A stretch of DNA of 64,000 nt from an uncultured Chitinophagaceae bacterium (GTDB lineage: Bacteria; Bacteroidota; Bacteroidia; Chitinophagales; Chitinophagaceae). Below the pieces are notes generated by a model, which did no database searches, was not told the DNA's origin, and saw only the letters and a list, made by a program, of their open reading frames with translations. Positions within the stretch are counted from its first letter, which is position 1. Every line of letters begins with the position of its first letter. Below, in pieces: positions 58,627 through 64,000 of this stretch. Made by a program: the position numbers and the translations under genes. The stretch lies in the NCBI GenBank assembly GCA_903830285.1, contig CAIKTE010000302.1:1-64000 (forward strand), written 5' to 3'.

Positions 58627-60093
58627 ATGAAATCAAATCAACCAAAAGAATCATCGAAGTACAGTTCACGCAGAAATTTTATTCGTAATGCAGCCTTAGC
58701 TGCAACCGGTTTTTATATCATTCCCCGCCATGTTTTGGGTCGTGGTTTTATAGCCCCCAGCGATAAACTAACGATCGCCGGTATTGGTGTAGGAGGCAAA
58801 GGAGCAGGTGATCTACAAAGCTTTTTTGAAAGCGGTAAAGCAAATATTATTGCGCTCTGTGATGTGGATGATAGACAAAGCCTCACCAGTTGTAAGCGTT
58901 TTCCGGCTGCGAAATACTATAAAGATTTTAGGGAAATGCTGGACAAGGAACATAAAAATATTGATGCTGTTTCTGTTTCAACACCCGATCATATGCATGC
59001 TGCACAAGCAATGGCAGCCATGCAAATGGGTAAACATGTGTATGTGCAAAAACCAATGGCACATGATATTTATGAAGCCAGGATGATGACCGAAGCTGCA
59101 CGCAAATACAAAGTGGTTACACAAATGGGTAATCAGGGTTCTTCTGGCGATGGCGTTCGTCAATTGCGTGAATGGTTCGACGCAGGAATTATCGGCGATG
59201 TGCATACAGTTTACTGTTTTACCGATCGGCCCGTTTGGCCGCAGGCTGTTAAATGGCCTGATAAAGCGCCAAGTATTCCTTCTCAGTTGGATTGGGATCT
59301 ATGGTTAGGTACAGCGCCCTACAAAGACTATGTTGATGGATTATTACCTTTTAACTGGAGGGGTTGGTGGGATTATGGAACGGGTGCATTGGGAGATATG
59401 GGCTGTCATTTAATGGAAGCGCCATTTCGAGTATTGGGATTAGGATATCCCACAGAAGCTGAGTGCAGCGTTTCTACCCGTTATATACAACCATGGACAA
59501 AGGCTTATTATCCCGAGAGCGGACCAACATCATCGCATATCACACTTACTTTCAAAGCAAAAAATCACGATATCAAAATGCATTGGATGGATGGAGGCAT
59601 TCAACCTGAAAGACCCGAAGAATTAGCCCCAACTGAAATATTCGGCGATGGTGGTAATGCCGTTCTTTTTGTTGGAACAAAAGGGAAAATGATGTGTGGA
59701 ACTTATGCTGCCAATCCAAGACTATTGCCACTTTCTCGTAATCAGGAAATGCAGGTAAAACAAACACTAGCACGTGTACCGGGAGGTGACAGAGGACATT
59801 ATGGAGCTTGGGTAGAAGCAGCTATTGCGGGTTATGGATCTGATGCTCATAAAAACCTAAGTTCTCATTTTGATCTGGCAGGACCATTAACTGAAATTGT
59901 TTTAATGGGTAATCTCGCCATCAGAAGTTATGATATCAGAAAACCAAAACTCAATAAGCCCAATGATTTTGATTATCCCGGAAAGAATAAAAAATTATTG
60001 TGGGATGGTGCTAGTATGAAGATCACAAATTTTGAAGAAGCCAATCAATTTGTAAAAAGAAGCTATCGAGAGGGGTGGACTTTAGGTAAATAA
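58627..60093 (+). CDS. Tat-exported Gfo/Idh/MocA family oxidoreductase
   Basis: 488 residues. The twin-arginine leader is SSRRNFIRNAALAATGFYII. The Rossmann start reads IAGIGVGGKGAGDLQSF and the sugar-oxidoreductase hallmark is VYVQKPMAHDIYEARMMTEA, followed by TQMGNQGSSGDGVRQLREW. GALGDMGCHLMEAPFRVLGL holds the conserved catalytic-region His. These enzymes oxidise or reduce sugars with tightly bound NAD(H) in the periplasm. It stands beside, and converges with, the TIM-barrel/GMC cluster, the arrangement seen in 3-keto-sugar pathways. Confidence 0.93.
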   Translation: MKSNQPKESSKYSSRRNFIRNAALAATGFYIIPRHVLGRGFIAPSDKLTIAGIGVGGKGAGDLQSFFESGKANIIALCDVDDRQSLTSCKRFPAAKYYKDFREMLDKEHKNIDAVSVSTPDHMHAAQAMAAMQMGKHVYVQKPMAHDIYEARMMTEAARKYKVVTQMGNQGSSGDGVRQLREWFDAGIIGDVHTVYCFTDRPVWPQAVKWPDKAPSIPSQLDWDLWLGTAPYKDYVDGLLPFNWRGWWDYGTGALGDMGCHLMEAPFRVLGLGYPTEAECSVSTRYIQPWTKAYYPESGPTSSHITLTFKAKNHDIKMHWMDGGIQPERPEELAPTEIFGDGGNAVLFVGTKGKMMCGTYAANPRLLPLSRNQEMQVKQTLARVPGGDRGHYGAWVEAAIAGYGSDAHKNLSSHFDLAGPLTEIVLMGNLAIRSYDIRKPKLNKPNDFDYPGKNKKLLWDGASMKITNFEEANQFVKRSYREGWTLGK

Positions 60094-60109
60094 TTCTATT
60101 GTTTGAAAC

Positions 60110-60146
60110 AAAAAACATCGGAAGAAAATTTCCGACGTTTTTGTTT
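60110..60146. terminator. Likely terminator between convergent genes
   Basis: AAACATCGGAA opposite TTCCGACGTTT, one mismatch, followed by TTGTTTT. Confidence 0.7.
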
Positions 60147-60167
60147 TATGACTTGTAAAATATTCTC

Positions 60168-61034
60168 CTAAAATGCTTTCAAATAATCAGCATCTACTTT
60201 TGCACTTGCTAACGGTGTTGTATTGGTGAATGCTTCCTGTTCAACAATATAATATTCCAGTCCGTTTTCCTTACCGGTTTTTAAAATAGAATGAAAATCG
60301 ATCGTTCCTTTCCCAAGATGAACAGATTCGCTTCCTATTGCTGTTTTACCCAGATCTTTCACATGACATAAGCGGAAACGATTCGGATATTTTTTGAAAT
60401 AAACCTGCGGATCAACTCCTGCTGCCACCACCCAGTAAATATCCATTTCAAAATCCACTAAATCCTTATCCGTATTATCCATCATCACTTCCTGAGGAAT
60501 TTGCCCGTCTAACTGTTTCCAGGAATAATCATGATTGTGATAAGCAAATCGAATCCCGTTCTTCTTACATGTTTCGCCGTTCTTATTAAACTCATCTGCG
60601 AAGCGTTTGAAATCATCTATAGATTTCTGAGGACCTTTATAAGGGCAGATCAAATATTTCATTCCGATCGCTGCAGCTTCTGCTGCCTTGCGTTCAAAAT
60701 CGGTTTTTGTTTCACAATGTGATGAAATGATCTTCATTCCAAGTTCGTCCATATAAGATTTGAATTCTGTATTTTTCATTCCCCAGAAAATGCCTTGTTT
60801 TCCTTCAAAGCTTTCGATTTGTTTATATCCGTAAGATGCAATTTGTTTAAGTGTCTCTTTAGCATTCACAGCCAGATCTTCCTTAACCGTCCACAACTGA
60901 ATACCGAATTGCTTTATTTTCTGTTCCGCAAATAATGTATCATTCATTATTGAGGAAAAATTTTTACCCGGCATAGCTAACCCCAGTGCAGATAATCCGC
61001 TGAGTTTTAGAAAATTTCTTCTGCTGTTTGACAT
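60168..61034 (-). CDS. Tat-exported sugar phosphate isomerase/epimerase-like TIM barrel
   Basis: 288 residues: leader MSNSRRNFLKLSGLSALGLA (Tat type), then an AP-endonuclease-2/xylose-isomerase-like barrel with FGIQLWTVKEDLAVNAKETL, YGYKQIESFEGKQG, RFAYHNHDYSWKQLDG, DFEMDIYWVVAAGVDP and FRLCHVKDLGKTAIGSESVH, LGKGTIDFHSILKTGKENGL. The Glu/His metal ligands are all in place. In 3-keto-glycoside pathways such proteins act on keto-sugar intermediates; here that is inferred from context. Last gene of the minus-strand cluster. Confidence 0.92.
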   Translation of the reverse strand: MSNSRRNFLKLSGLSALGLAMPGKNFSSIMNDTLFAEQKIKQFGIQLWTVKEDLAVNAKETLKQIASYGYKQIESFEGKQGIFWGMKNTEFKSYMDELGMKIISSHCETKTDFERKAAEAAAIGMKYLICPYKGPQKSIDDFKRFADEFNKNGETCKKNGIRFAYHNHDYSWKQLDGQIPQEVMMDNTDKDLVDFEMDIYWVVAAGVDPQVYFKKYPNRFRLCHVKDLGKTAIGSESVHLGKGTIDFHSILKTGKENGLEYYIVEQEAFTNTTPLASAKVDADYLKAF

Positions 61035-61090
61035 ATGAATCGTTTTATAAATAAAAGAATAAGTAATTCCTTGAATACCCTATTTACATG

Positions 61091-61657
61091 TTAAGATGTT
61101 GCCCAAGCCTTATCTCCTTTTTTATAAGGAACGGATCCTTCATATTTCCCGGGAATGGCAACATAACGCAATGCTTCTGTAGCTCCGGGTTTTGATGTAA
61201 AGAACCCGGCCAGTGTTAATTGCTTCATCATGGTAAAATAATGATTCGGATCGGTTTCTTTTTTGGCTTTCTGATAAGTTTTTGCTTCTTTATCTAATTC
61301 GGTCAGCAATTCTTTACGTTGTGCAGCTGTAATTTTCATGAAAGAAGAACTGAATTTTGTCTTACTTGCTTCATTGAGTTTTATCAAGCCATCATGAAAT
61401 ATCTTCTGGTCTTTTGCTTCATAACAATCATTCACCATTACGGTCATGAACTTACCCACTTCTGCGTCTTTCGCTCCGGGAGTATTTGTTTTGGGAATGA
61501 TGCTCTCAGCCACTTCATCTAAAAAAGCTATATCATCTGTACTAAAAGTTCCATCAGATTTTGCATTGATCTTGCAACCCGATAATAACAAATCGCCTCC
61601 TATCAAAGCACCACCTGTTGCGAGTGTTATCATTTTTAAAAGTTCTCTTCTTTCCAT
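61091..61657 (-). CDS. Gluconate 2-dehydrogenase subunit 3 family protein
   Basis: 188 residues with a Tat/lipoprotein-like leader (ERRELLKMITLATGGALIGG, LLLSGC). The mature part matches the small partner subunit of membrane sugar dehydrogenases: SIIPKTNTPGAKDAEVGKFM, VMVNDCYEAKDQKIFHDGL, and the closing FTSKPGATEALRYVAIPGKY. It forms a complex with the GMC oxidoreductase encoded 15 bases upstream and is needed for its export and activity in known members. Confidence 0.93.
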   Translation of the reverse strand: MERRELLKMITLATGGALIGGDLLLSGCKINAKSDGTFSTDDIAFLDEVAESIIPKTNTPGAKDAEVGKFMTVMVNDCYEAKDQKIFHDGLIKLNEASKTKFSSSFMKITAAQRKELLTELDKEAKTYQKAKKETDPNHYFTMMKQLTLAGFFTSKPGATEALRYVAIPGKYEGSVPYKKGDKAWATS

Positions 61658-61672
61658 ACTGATTTTATTATT

Positions 61673-63352
61673 TTATAAGTTTCCTTTTTTTAGTTCACTC
61701 ACTGCATGATCAGCAGCACGTGCTGTAAAGGCCATGTAGGTCAATGATGGATTCTGGCAAGCCGCGGAAGTCATGAATGAACCATCGGTTACAAATACAT
61801 TCTTAGCATCCCAAACCTGATTCCATTTATTTAAAACAGAGGTCTTCGGATCCTTGCCCATTCTCGCAGTACCCATTTCATGAATACCTCGTCCGAGATA
61901 AGGATTCGTGTCTGTACCTTTTACATTTTTTACGCCAACGGCTTCGAGCATTTCAATAGCATCATTCAACATATCCTTTCTCATCTTCAATTCATTTTCT
62001 TTTAATTCTGCATCGAAAGAAAGTACATTCAATCCCCATTTATCTTTCTTGGTTTTATCAAGTGTTACTTTATTATCATGATAAGGCAATGTTTCTCCAA
62101 ATCCGCCCATGCCCATACTCCAATTACCCGGCTCTGTTAATGCTTCTTTGAATTCGGACCCGATACTGTATTCCGACACTTCATGATTCCATCCTTGTCG
62201 ACTGGCACCACCCTGATATCCGAAACCTCGCAAATAATCTCTTTTATCTCCAAAGAAATTGCGATAACGCGGAATATAAATTCCGTTGGCACGGCGACCG
62301 AAAACATATTTGTCTTCATATCCTTCCATGATACCATCGGCATGAACATTCAGATGATGGTCCATTAAATTATGTCCCAATTCACCGCTACTGCTTCCTA
62401 AACCTTCGGGCCAGATCTCAGTTGCACTGTTCATTAAAATCCATGCACTGTTTAAAGTGGATGCATTCAAGAAAATGATCTTTGCTTTATAAACATAAGT
62501 TTGATTGGTTTCTGCATCCAATACTTCTACACCTGTTGCTTTTTGAGAGTCCTTATCGTATAAGATCTTTGTAACAATACTCCAGGGACGAACAGTAAGA
62601 TTCCCGGTATTCATCGCTGCAGGCAATGTAGATGATTGTGTACTGAAATAGCCGCCAAACGGACAACCTTGCACACATTTATTTCTGAATTGACACATTT
62701 GTCTGTCAGGATGAGGCGCCGTAATATGTGCAGTTCTGCCAATGATCATTGGTCGCATTCCTTTATAGAATGTTTTCATTCTTGCAGCCACATCTTTCTC
62801 CACACAATTCATTTCCATTGGCGGTAAGAATTGCCCATCGGGTAATTGAGCCAATCCTTCTTTAGATCCGCTGATGCCAGCAAATTTTTCTACATAATCA
62901 TACCATTGTTCCAGGTCTTTATAACGAACCGGCCAGTCAACAGCAATGCCGTCCTTTGCATTTTCTTCAAAATACATATCACTCCATCTATAACTCTGTC
63001 TGCCCCAAGTTAAAGATCGGCCTCCCACATGATAACCGCGAAACCAATCGAAACGTTTTACTTCTGTGTAGGGACATTCCGAATCTTTTACCCACATATC
63101 CAGATTACTTTCTCTCAAAGGATAATCTCTTTTTAAAACGGGATAATTATTGATCATTTCCTGTGTTCTTCCTCCACGATGAGGAAAATCCCAGGCTTCT
63201 TTCATAGAGTTTACATAATCTTTTATATGCTCTATGTTTCTGCCGCGTTCCAGCATGATAACTTTTAATCCTTTCTGTGTAAGCTCTTTTGCCGCCCAGC
63301 CGCCGCTGATACCTGACCCAATTACGATTGCGTCATACGTTTGATCTGCCAT
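61673..63352 (-). CDS. GMC family FAD sugar oxidoreductase
   Basis: 559 residues. FAD site AIVIGSGISGGWAAKELTQK, LERGRNIEHIKDYVNSM, VGGRSLTWGRQSYRWSDMYF, CQFRNKCVQGCPFGGYFST with a Cys cluster as in FAD glucoside dehydrogenases, and the active-site His region GRGIHEMGTARMGKDPKTSV followed by SAACQNPSLTYMAFTARAAD. No signal peptide: export in complex with the subunit 3 protein by hitchhiking is typical. It likely oxidises a hydroxyl of a glucoside, C3 in the known members. Confidence 0.94.
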   Translation of the reverse strand: MADQTYDAIVIGSGISGGWAAKELTQKGLKVIMLERGRNIEHIKDYVNSMKEAWDFPHRGGRTQEMINNYPVLKRDYPLRESNLDMWVKDSECPYTEVKRFDWFRGYHVGGRSLTWGRQSYRWSDMYFEENAKDGIAVDWPVRYKDLEQWYDYVEKFAGISGSKEGLAQLPDGQFLPPMEMNCVEKDVAARMKTFYKGMRPMIIGRTAHITAPHPDRQMCQFRNKCVQGCPFGGYFSTQSSTLPAAMNTGNLTVRPWSIVTKILYDKDSQKATGVEVLDAETNQTYVYKAKIIFLNASTLNSAWILMNSATEIWPEGLGSSSGELGHNLMDHHLNVHADGIMEGYEDKYVFGRRANGIYIPRYRNFFGDKRDYLRGFGYQGGASRQGWNHEVSEYSIGSEFKEALTEPGNWSMGMGGFGETLPYHDNKVTLDKTKKDKWGLNVLSFDAELKENELKMRKDMLNDAIEMLEAVGVKNVKGTDTNPYLGRGIHEMGTARMGKDPKTSVLNKWNQVWDAKNVFVTDGSFMTSAACQNPSLTYMAFTARAADHAVSELKKGNL

Positions 63353-63417
63353 GGTTTTTGTTAGGTTTATTTATTTTTTACAAACATTTGTTCTTTGCCC
63401 ATCGCCTGTTGCGTCGC

Positions 63418-63530
63418 TCCCGATATATCGGGACTTGTACGTTCGGAATTTTGTTGAACAACGAAAGTCGTAAGTCGTTAATCGCAAGTGAAGAACCACA
63501 AACTTGCGATTCACGATTATCGATTCACGT
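63418..63530. repeat. Compound intergenic repeat between the GMC and isomerase genes
   Basis: Contains the 16-base perfect palindrome TCCCGATATATCGGGA (63418-63433), a TCGCAAGT/ACTTGCGA hairpin, and a head-to-tail pair of GATTCACGATTATC-type units (63508-63530) with the same layout as the repeat inside metH. It fills most of the 187-base gap. Confidence 0.55.
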
Positions 63531-63539
63531 TTCTTTTCA

Positions 63540-64000
63540 TCACACATCACAAATAGAAATCGACTCTTTCAATGAATCTAATTTGTTTTTATATGTTGGC
63601 GCAAATTCCTGTGCTACATATCCTTTATATCCGGTTTCAACTATGGCACGCATCACTGCAGGATAATGCAATTCCTGTGTATCATTGATCTCATGCCTGC
63701 CGGGGATGCCTCCTGTATGATAGTGGGCAATGAATTGATGATAGTCTCTGATATTTCTGATGATATCTCCTTCCTGGATCTGCATGTGATAAATATCGAA
63801 CAAGAGTTTAAAATGCTCTGAACCTACTCTTTTACATAATTCGGCACCCCATTCAACATGATTACACATATAATCTTTATGATCGATCTTACTGTTCAAT
63901 AATTCCATCACCATTGTAACCCCATTTTTTTCCGCAATAGGTAAGATCTTTTGTAAAGCAGTGCTGCAATTTTTCATACCCGTTTCGTCATCCATACCTT
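63540..64000 (-). CDS. Hydroxypyruvate isomerase/TIM-barrel family protein (cut by window end)
   Basis: The last 151 or more residues of a TIM-barrel isomerase: NGVTMVMELLNSKIDHKDYM, HFKLLFDIYHMQIQEGDIIR, IAHYHTGGIPGRHEINDTQE and GYVAQEFAPTYKNKLDSLK. The metal-binding Glu/His/Asp residues of the Hyi family are visible (ELLN, DIYHMQ, HTGGIPGR). The start lies beyond the window. It is the first visible gene of the minus-strand sugar-oxidation cluster and shares its context, though a 187-base repeat separates it from the GMC gene. Confidence 0.88.
   Translation of the reverse strand, partial: GMDDETGMKNCSTALQKILPIAEKNGVTMVMELLNSKIDHKDYMCNHVEWGAELCKRVGSEHFKLLFDIYHMQIQEGDIIRNIRDYHQFIAHYHTGGIPGRHEINDTQELHYPAVMRAIVETGYKGYVAQEFAPTYKNKLDSLKESISICDV

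Follow-up and report, generated by a model that had tools for sequence, protein, structure and literature searches.

The question raised by the right-hand end of this DNA is whether a flavin-dependent sugar dehydrogenase and enzymes acting on 3-keto-glycosides, encoded side by side there, form one catabolic system, and by what chemistry such a system would work. The window, i.e. the whole analysed stretch of 64,000 nucleotides from an uncultured Chitinophagaceae bacterium (bases 1-64000 of contig CAIKTE010000302.1), belongs to a contig that continues to 74,136 in a genome of 3.99 Mb. Judged from the genes, their order and conservation, and the domains, signal motifs and active-site residues observed, the locus is probably a cluster for respiratory 3-keto-glycoside catabolism, with its genes in two divergent sets, a degree of confidence that applies to the pathway as a whole. 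Such a pathway would break sugar compounds via prior oxidation of the ring rather than by direct hydrolysis of the bond.

A first-pass annotation of the window had proposed a 3-keto-glycoside cluster on the basis of five genes, all of which were recovered at their places by open reading frames and Pfam domains. It had also predicted a DUF1080 partner just past position 64000, and two were found, DUFa (68686-69384, + strand) and DUFb (69987-70706, - strand). The cluster reading is further supported by the features of a respiratory sugar dehydrogenase and by a homologue 67% identical to a glucal hydratase.

Gene content and predicted compartments

The first gene of the cluster, Gfo1 (58627-60093, + strand), encodes a Gfo/Idh/MocA oxidoreductase (PF01408; GFO_IDH_MocA, E-value 3e-20) with a twin-arginine start, which is a relative of the BT2158-type glycoside 3-dehydrogenases. 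It is followed on the - strand by TIM1 (60168-61034), a xylose-isomerase-like TIM barrel (PF01261; AP_endonuc_2, 4e-15) with a start of the twin-arginine translocation (Tat) type; by Sub3 (61091-61657), a member of the gluconate 2-dehydrogenase subunit 3 family (PF13618; Gluconate_2-dh3, 4e-39) with a twin-arginine (RR) motif and a lipobox, predicted to be a Tat lipoprotein that carries GMC; by GMC itself (61673-63352), an FAD oxidoreductase (PF00732/PF05199; GMC_oxred_N/C, 3e-16/3e-22) without an export motif, the presumed catalytic subunit of a C3 dehydrogenase; and by HPI (63540-64427), a Tat-type TIM barrel resembling hydroxypyruvate isomerases and epimerases (PF01261). The window holds 63540-64000 of HPI (AP_endonuc_2, 1e-19); the 5'-terminal 427 bases fall beyond 64000, and the gene is complete on the contig.

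Past the window follow a major facilitator superfamily (MFS) transporter gene (64447-65682, - strand) and, on the + strand, Gfo2 (65967-67133), a second Gfo/Idh/MocA protein and reductase candidate, TIM2 (67169-68224), a hydratase-type TIM barrel, CytC (68309-68683), a c-type cytochrome lipoprotein of ~124 amino acids, and DUFa. Between DUFa and DUFb lies tadA, and a third Gfo/Idh/MocA gene, Gfo3 (70718-72085, - strand), stands next to DUFb. The region between the divergent operons has one promoter-like site, compared with a mean of 2.4 in shuffled sequence, and one terminator-like site, compared with 0.0, but the latter falls inside the MFS coding region.

Export signals (Tat RR motif, lipobox, hydrophobic start) are motif calls made by script only. 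The RR starts divide the set by compartment: they are present in homologues of Sub3 (64/64), TIM1 (21/21), Gfo1 (24/24) and HPI (64/65), and absent or rare in those of GMC (0/178), TIM2 (0/56) and Gfo2 (2/62). A TatC gene is present in the genome.

Conservation and co-occurrence

Synteny was analysed in the best 80 of at least 590 GMC relatives, using identity thresholds set in the script; 52 of these loci span at least 20 kb, and some are cut by contig ends. In the 52 longer loci, the core genes are Gfo2 (51), TIM2 (50), HPI (48), Sub3 (47), MFS (44), CytC (43) and DUFa (37), all seven being present together in 25. The flanking controls tadA, SOD and ALDH were found in only 7, 6 and 4 of them. 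With core genes kept in 37-51 and flanking genes in 4-7 of the 52 loci, the arrangement goes beyond chance. Gene adjacency is conserved as well: among the 80 loci Gfo2 stands immediately before TIM2 in 56 cases and DUFa adjoins CytC in 36. Many Chitinophagaceae loci have two divergent gene sets as in the cluster described here, and in Mucilaginibacter loci such as L056 the genes for GMC, Gfo1, Sub3, Gfo2, TIM2 and MFS lie on a single strand.

The Gfo/Idh/MocA enzyme and TIM barrel on which the first-pass annotation relied are thus present but accessory, as Gfo1 and TIM1 occur in 20 and 13 of the 52 loci; the conserved proteins of these two kinds are Gfo2 and TIM2, encoded past the window. Gfo3 was found in 2 loci and DUFb in 1.

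Across 60 genomes of the family (the genome of the window included), GMC and the hydratase occur together in 40, the hydratase alone in 1 and GMC alone in 1. The corresponding p of 4e-13 takes the genomes as independent and, since they are related, is a guide only. The two genes lie at most 20 kb apart in 29 of the 40 genomes, farther apart on one contig in 3 and on different contigs in 8. These distances are based on 45 GMC places and 41 of 42 hydratase places; the presence per genome agrees with the tables, and by visual inspection the places left out would shift none of the 11 non-near genomes to 20 kb or less.

Related gene sets are also found outside the family. Sets that are nearly complete, with GMC, subunit 3, DUF1080, cytochrome c, hydratase, Gfo/Idh/MocA, a permease and further TIM barrels, lie on plasmids of Hymenobacter and Xanthomonas. 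In Ketogulonicigenium, ABC transporter genes lie close to GMC, Sub3, a TIM barrel, a hydratase and Gfo/Idh/MocA, and Catenovulum has GMC, Sub3, DUF1080 and a TIM barrel, with no match for the hydratase. Hydratase and Gfo/Idh/MocA genes by ABC transporter genes, without DUF1080 in 19 kb, were observed in Agrobacterium, Phyllobacterium, Azospirillum and Sulfitobacter (L102, L104, L105 and L106); in two of these four loci a xylose isomerase gene adjoins.

The oxidation module

Among the 80 best relatives of GMC, the closest named ones are 93% identical in an uncultured Chitinophagaceae metagenome-assembled genome and 81% identical in Sediminibacterium magnilacihabitans, and by themselves they point to a probable member of the Chitinophagaceae. 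Its best solved relative is fructose dehydrogenase, the large subunit of which aligns over GMC residues 6-557 of 559. His491 of GMC aligns with the fructose dehydrogenase His that is mutated in chain 8k6j (H1147A), and Asn534 with an Asn for which chain 8xcn has Ala. A His/Asn pair has been named as the likely catalytic pair of Burkholderia cepacia glucose dehydrogenase (GDH), the 3Fe-4S ligands of which are C212, C218 and C222 (PMC6719666; this and the other papers with PMC numbers are cited from excerpts of their text). The same spacing is seen in GMC (Cys220-x5-Cys226-x3-Cys230). We aligned the GMC protein of the window with 178 others that passed filters for length and identity in the 80 loci; the columns of the three Cys and of the His are invariant (179/179), and the Asn column has Asn in 167 and Ser in 12 sequences. 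A crude hydrophobicity limit is exceeded by the starts of 12 of the 178 homologues.

Sub3 scores 135 and 134 bits against PF13618 in two profile searches, and a lipobox is present in 57/64 of its homologues. By sequence, GMC and Sub3 have the features of a respiratory sugar dehydrogenase, and the pairing of a signal-less catalytic subunit with a small partner bearing a Tat signal matches the FAD dehydrogenase complexes of the DET type (GDH, FDH, LacABC, GlycDH). The CxxCH haem motif is kept in 51/51 CytC homologues, with one copy only in the cluster's own CytC. Together, the predicted properties of GMC, Sub3 and CytC fit a dehydrogenase in the periplasm with a membrane-anchored cytochrome c as its electron acceptor.

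GMC arrays and a possibly shared small subunit

The cluster described here has a single GMC gene. At a limit of 45% identity, two or more GMC genes occur in 37 of the 52 longer loci, with a maximum of seven, and arrays may be cut at the ends of loci. At the same limit, the number of Sub3 copies is one in 46 loci, none in 5 and two in 1, and an additional, more divergent Sub3 is present in several Mucilaginibacter loci. Tandem arrays with 3-7 GMC genes, usually with one Sub3, are seen in L019, L020, L023, L026, L034, L040, L041, L055, L070 and others. The 12 GMC proteins with Ser in the Asn534 column come from 12 different loci (the first eight just named together with L063, L065, L081 and L082), and the Asn-to-Ser copy is never the first-listed GMC gene of its locus. 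The 179 GMC sequences cluster into three groups at a looser cut or five at a tighter one.

Sharing of a single small subunit within such arrays would, if real, offer aerobic Bacteroidota a simple means of using more glycosides without new glycoside hydrolases. A search for literature on bacterial GMC gene arrays by title and start of abstract found none among the open-licence papers listed; such arrays may be in print elsewhere. The genome of the window has a second GMC and subunit 3 pair near a contig end (L017, contig C31, 476-2906), and that contig has no DUF1080 or hydratase match at the limits used.

Candidate enzymes for cleavage

The two DUF1080 proteins score 170.7 and 172.3 bits against PF06439 (cut-off 26.8) over the full profile (1-187 of 187). 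Solved relatives exist for DUFa, the only one of the two searched, and a hydrophobic start is seen in 34/41 of its homologues. The genome has ten DUF1080 domain matches, two of them in this cluster. Other DUF1080 clusters, on contigs C276 and C16 (L012 and L014), encode two-domain proteins beside Gfo/Idh/MocA genes and genes that by eye resemble alpha-galactosidase genes.

Gfo1 has its best PDB matches in 8tdf and 8tdh (340 and 332 bits), and TIM1 in 8tcd, with further matches to 8tcs and 8tct and to the Agrobacterium O-glycoside eliminase AtOGE (8bvk, E-value 8e-16). PDB entries 8tcd, 8tda and 8tdf presumably belong to the work on Bacteroides BT2157-BT2159. All eight AtOGE active-site residues compared (E39, H66, H132, H134, E161, D163, H189 and E233) are present in TIM1; the metal ligands and catalytic His of AtOGE are named in PMC10628242. 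These matches make TIM1 a candidate 3-keto-glycoside beta-eliminase. Homologues of 8bvk were also seen in Ketogulonicigenium (60% identical) and Xanthomonas (57%), both with a signal-like start by eye.

The predicted cytosolic half

TIM2 shares 67% identity (234/349, residues 1-350 of 351) with PDB 8ro4, entitled "2-hydroxy-3-keto-glucal hydratase", and through this homology it is predicted to have the same function. Among its 56 homologues none has a lipobox and two have a hydrophobic start; TIM2 therefore looks cytosolic. In the Agrobacterium operon, a hydratase of this kind is accompanied by a Gfo-type reductase thought to make glucose, and the role of the hydratase is described as preliminary (PMC10628242). 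The tie to a solved hydratase, the retention of TIM2 in 50/52 loci and the lack of RR starts lead us to a definite reading, in which elimination, import, hydration and reduction would follow one another. Since TIM2 seems cytosolic and the cleavage candidates bear export signals, the MFS protein would import the glucal or a mixture containing it.

The levoglucosan pathway was considered for the Gfo/Idh/MocA proteins and rejected, as the NF052479 scores of Gfo2, Gfo1 and Gfo3 (102.6, 64.5 and 70.4 bits) are far under the cut-off of 650.

The complete HPI protein scores 86 bits against PF01261. Its residues E175, D211, H237 and E274 (numbered as in the homologue of locus L018) are invariant in 25 homologues. 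The AlphaFold model of the L018 homologue has a pLDDT of 81.5, with the first 36 residues poor, and in Foldseek comparisons YcjR chains score much like those of AP endonuclease family 2 and ketose 3-epimerase. YcjR (6wn6) appears at ranks 20 and 25 with TM 0.70 and 0.69 and reaches 29 bits by sequence. The model does not tell a YcjR-type 3-keto-D-glucoside 4-epimerase apart from AP endonuclease family 2 proteins or ketose 3-epimerases, and HPI is not assigned to the YcjR type.

Proposed pathway and alternative explanations

In the pathway that we infer, GMC, exported in the folded state with the Tat lipoprotein Sub3, would oxidise the C3 hydroxyl of a glycoside in the periplasm, and electrons would flow from FAD through the 3Fe-4S cluster and the lipoprotein cytochrome c to the respiratory chain. 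DUF1080, the Tat-exported TIM1 or both would then cleave the 3-keto-glycoside in the periplasm. At least part of this cleavage would be a beta-elimination, yielding 2-hydroxy-3-keto-glucal and a free aglycone or sugar. After import of the keto-sugar product by the MFS protein, cytosolic TIM2 would add water to give 3-keto-glucose, and Gfo2 would reduce this to the hexose with NAD(P)H. A putative role of HPI is the isomerisation or epimerisation of keto-sugars, which may let galacto- and gluco-configured substrates join one route. The elimination and glucal-import details are less sure than the 3-keto-glycoside pathway as a whole. We advance only tentatively the fuller combination, in which the cargo crossing the inner membrane is 2-hydroxy-3-keto-glucal released by exported TIM1 and/or DUF1080, the glucal enters through the MFS protein to be hydrated and reduced in the cytosol, and in which up to seven GMC proteins, some of them Asn-to-Ser, share one Tat lipoprotein and cytochrome, each adding a substrate class.

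Several observations weigh against the 3-keto-glycoside pathway or its parts. A DUF1080 match is absent within the examined stretch in 15 of the 52 longer loci, although the query consisted of the cluster's own two proteins and distant DUF1080 proteins may be missed. Among these 15 are all ten named Mucilaginibacter loci of at least 20 kb (L052, L056, L060, L068, L071, L072, L080, L083, L095 and L097), where the stretches end soon after the cluster and a DUF1080 gene farther out is possible. None of the Pedobacter DUF1080 mutants has a lactose phenotype (PMC9007349). Neither GMC nor the hydratase was found in 18/60 family genomes at the limits used. Conversely, four of the five plasmid loci selected by the hydratase (L102, L104-L106) have no GMC or subunit 3 in 19 kb, so that the hydratase is no proof of the GMC route; the fifth, L103, has both. 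The Gfo/Idh/MocA protein of the Xanthomonas plasmid is just 29% identical to Gfo2, and TIM1 only 23% identical to AtOGE. Gfo1 reaches 490 bits with the NCBIfam model BT_2158_fam (NF058561), under the equivalog cut-off of 750, and is therefore treated as a relative of the BT2158 family and not assigned to it; Gfo3 and Gfo2 score 127 and 27 bits. An AlphaFold model of Sub3 (pLDDT 75.7) has no Foldseek match in the PDB at E-values up to 0.001, and the small subunits of GDH and fructose dehydrogenase are not named in 50 Foldseek or 17 VIA-align rows for it; this comparison of a predicted model is no evidence for a new fold. Finally, CytC is single-haem, unlike the multihaem subunit that transfers electrons in B. 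cepacia GDH (PMC6719666), a difference that speaks against a three-subunit complex of the GDH type, not against one of the LacABC type.

Among other explanations, the closest to ours keeps the pathway and changes its chemistry: DUF1080 would fully hydrolyse the 3-keto-glycoside in the periplasm, the free 3-keto-hexose would be taken up for reduction by Gfo2, and TIM2 would only salvage glucal formed spontaneously or as a side product. We take this version seriously without expecting it to be the correct one. PF06439 is now named 3-keto-disaccharide hydrolase, hydrolysis is what Price 2022 proposes in Caulobacter (PMC9007349), and the 36 cases of DUFa beside CytC agree with it. However, the hydratase is kept in more loci (50/52) than DUFa (37/52), and nine of the ten named Mucilaginibacter loci have the hydratase yet no DUF1080 match, which is hard to explain for mere salvage; TIM1, moreover, holds the full set of eliminase residues.

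It is considerably less likely that the dehydrogenase acts on non-glycosides such as gluconate, fructose or cyclitols, with TIM barrels of the inosose or hydroxypyruvate type. The Pfam name of subunit 3 and the fructose dehydrogenase relationship of GMC would agree with such substrates, as would matches to IolE and hydroxypyruvate isomerase profiles, all of them far under cut-off; against them stand the 67% identity of TIM2 to the glucal hydratase, the DUF1080 neighbours and the genome-wide co-occurrence of GMC and hydratase. A gluconate or fructose dehydrogenase proper is likewise disfavoured, because CytC is single-haem and the neighbours point to keto-glycosides. Lastly, the cluster could consist of two unrelated modules that are neighbours by accident, a notion to which the rarity of Gfo1, TIM1, DUFb and Gfo3 (20, 13, 1 and 2 of 52 loci) lends some colour. 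The synteny counts have already largely refuted it: relatives retain the core set, with one gene order in many Chitinophagaceae and a different one in Mucilaginibacter. Together with the co-occurrence in 40/60 genomes and the similar sets in Hymenobacter and Xanthomonas, these counts make an accidental association very improbable.

Comparison with known systems

The first-pass annotation had pointed to the presence of both modules in one place. They are indeed joined here, but the joining itself has been published: Price 2022 describes LacABC beside DUF1080 in Caulobacter, LacA and DUF1080 close together in three further genomes, and similar LacABC-DUF1080 clusters in some Bacteroidetes (PMC9007349). 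According to fitness data in the same paper, lacABC is needed by Caulobacter for lactose and important for salicin, and likewise important for lactose use by this bacterium are a reductase, a transporter and two epimerases; in Pedobacter, a putative lactose dehydrogenase is important for several glycosides. The fate of 3-ketogalactose is left open there, the epimerases and the reductase being only possible players. By comparison with the description (not the sequence) of the Caulobacter lac cluster, the locus reported here additionally has the Tat-type proteins Gfo1 and TIM1, and TIM2 is tied here to a solved glucal hydratase, which is absent from section 10 of Price 2022.

The GlycDH-OGE-HYD-Gfo operon of Agrobacterium tumefaciens, described by Bitter 2023 (PMC10628242), works by elimination chemistry and shares with our locus a flavin dehydrogenase with a Tat-signal partner, the OGE active-site residues (in TIM1), a hydratase and a Gfo-type reductase. 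A possible difference lies in export, as the cleavage candidates of our locus bear export signals and its hydratase does not, and our locus has an MFS gene; the text of PMC10628242 has no word beginning with 'DUF'. A BT2158-type Gfo/Idh/MocA protein, a TIM barrel and DUF1080 relatives are held in common with Bacteroides BT2157-BT2159, to which the present locus adds the respiratory module of GMC, subunit 3 and cytochrome, with Gfo1 below the BT_2158 cut-off. The levoglucosan pathway LgdA-LgdB1-LgdB2-LgdC (PMC7676230) follows the same chemistry of oxidation, elimination, hydration and reduction, but its first step is NAD-dependent, unlike that proposed here, and the levoglucosan enzymes in PMC10066097 contain nothing that alters our reading.

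Given the published LacABC-DUF1080 clusters and the elimination pathway of Agrobacterium, this type of cluster is already known. What is new here is the predicted assignment of TIM2, the retention of the eliminase residues in TIM1, the argument from compartments and the conservation counts.

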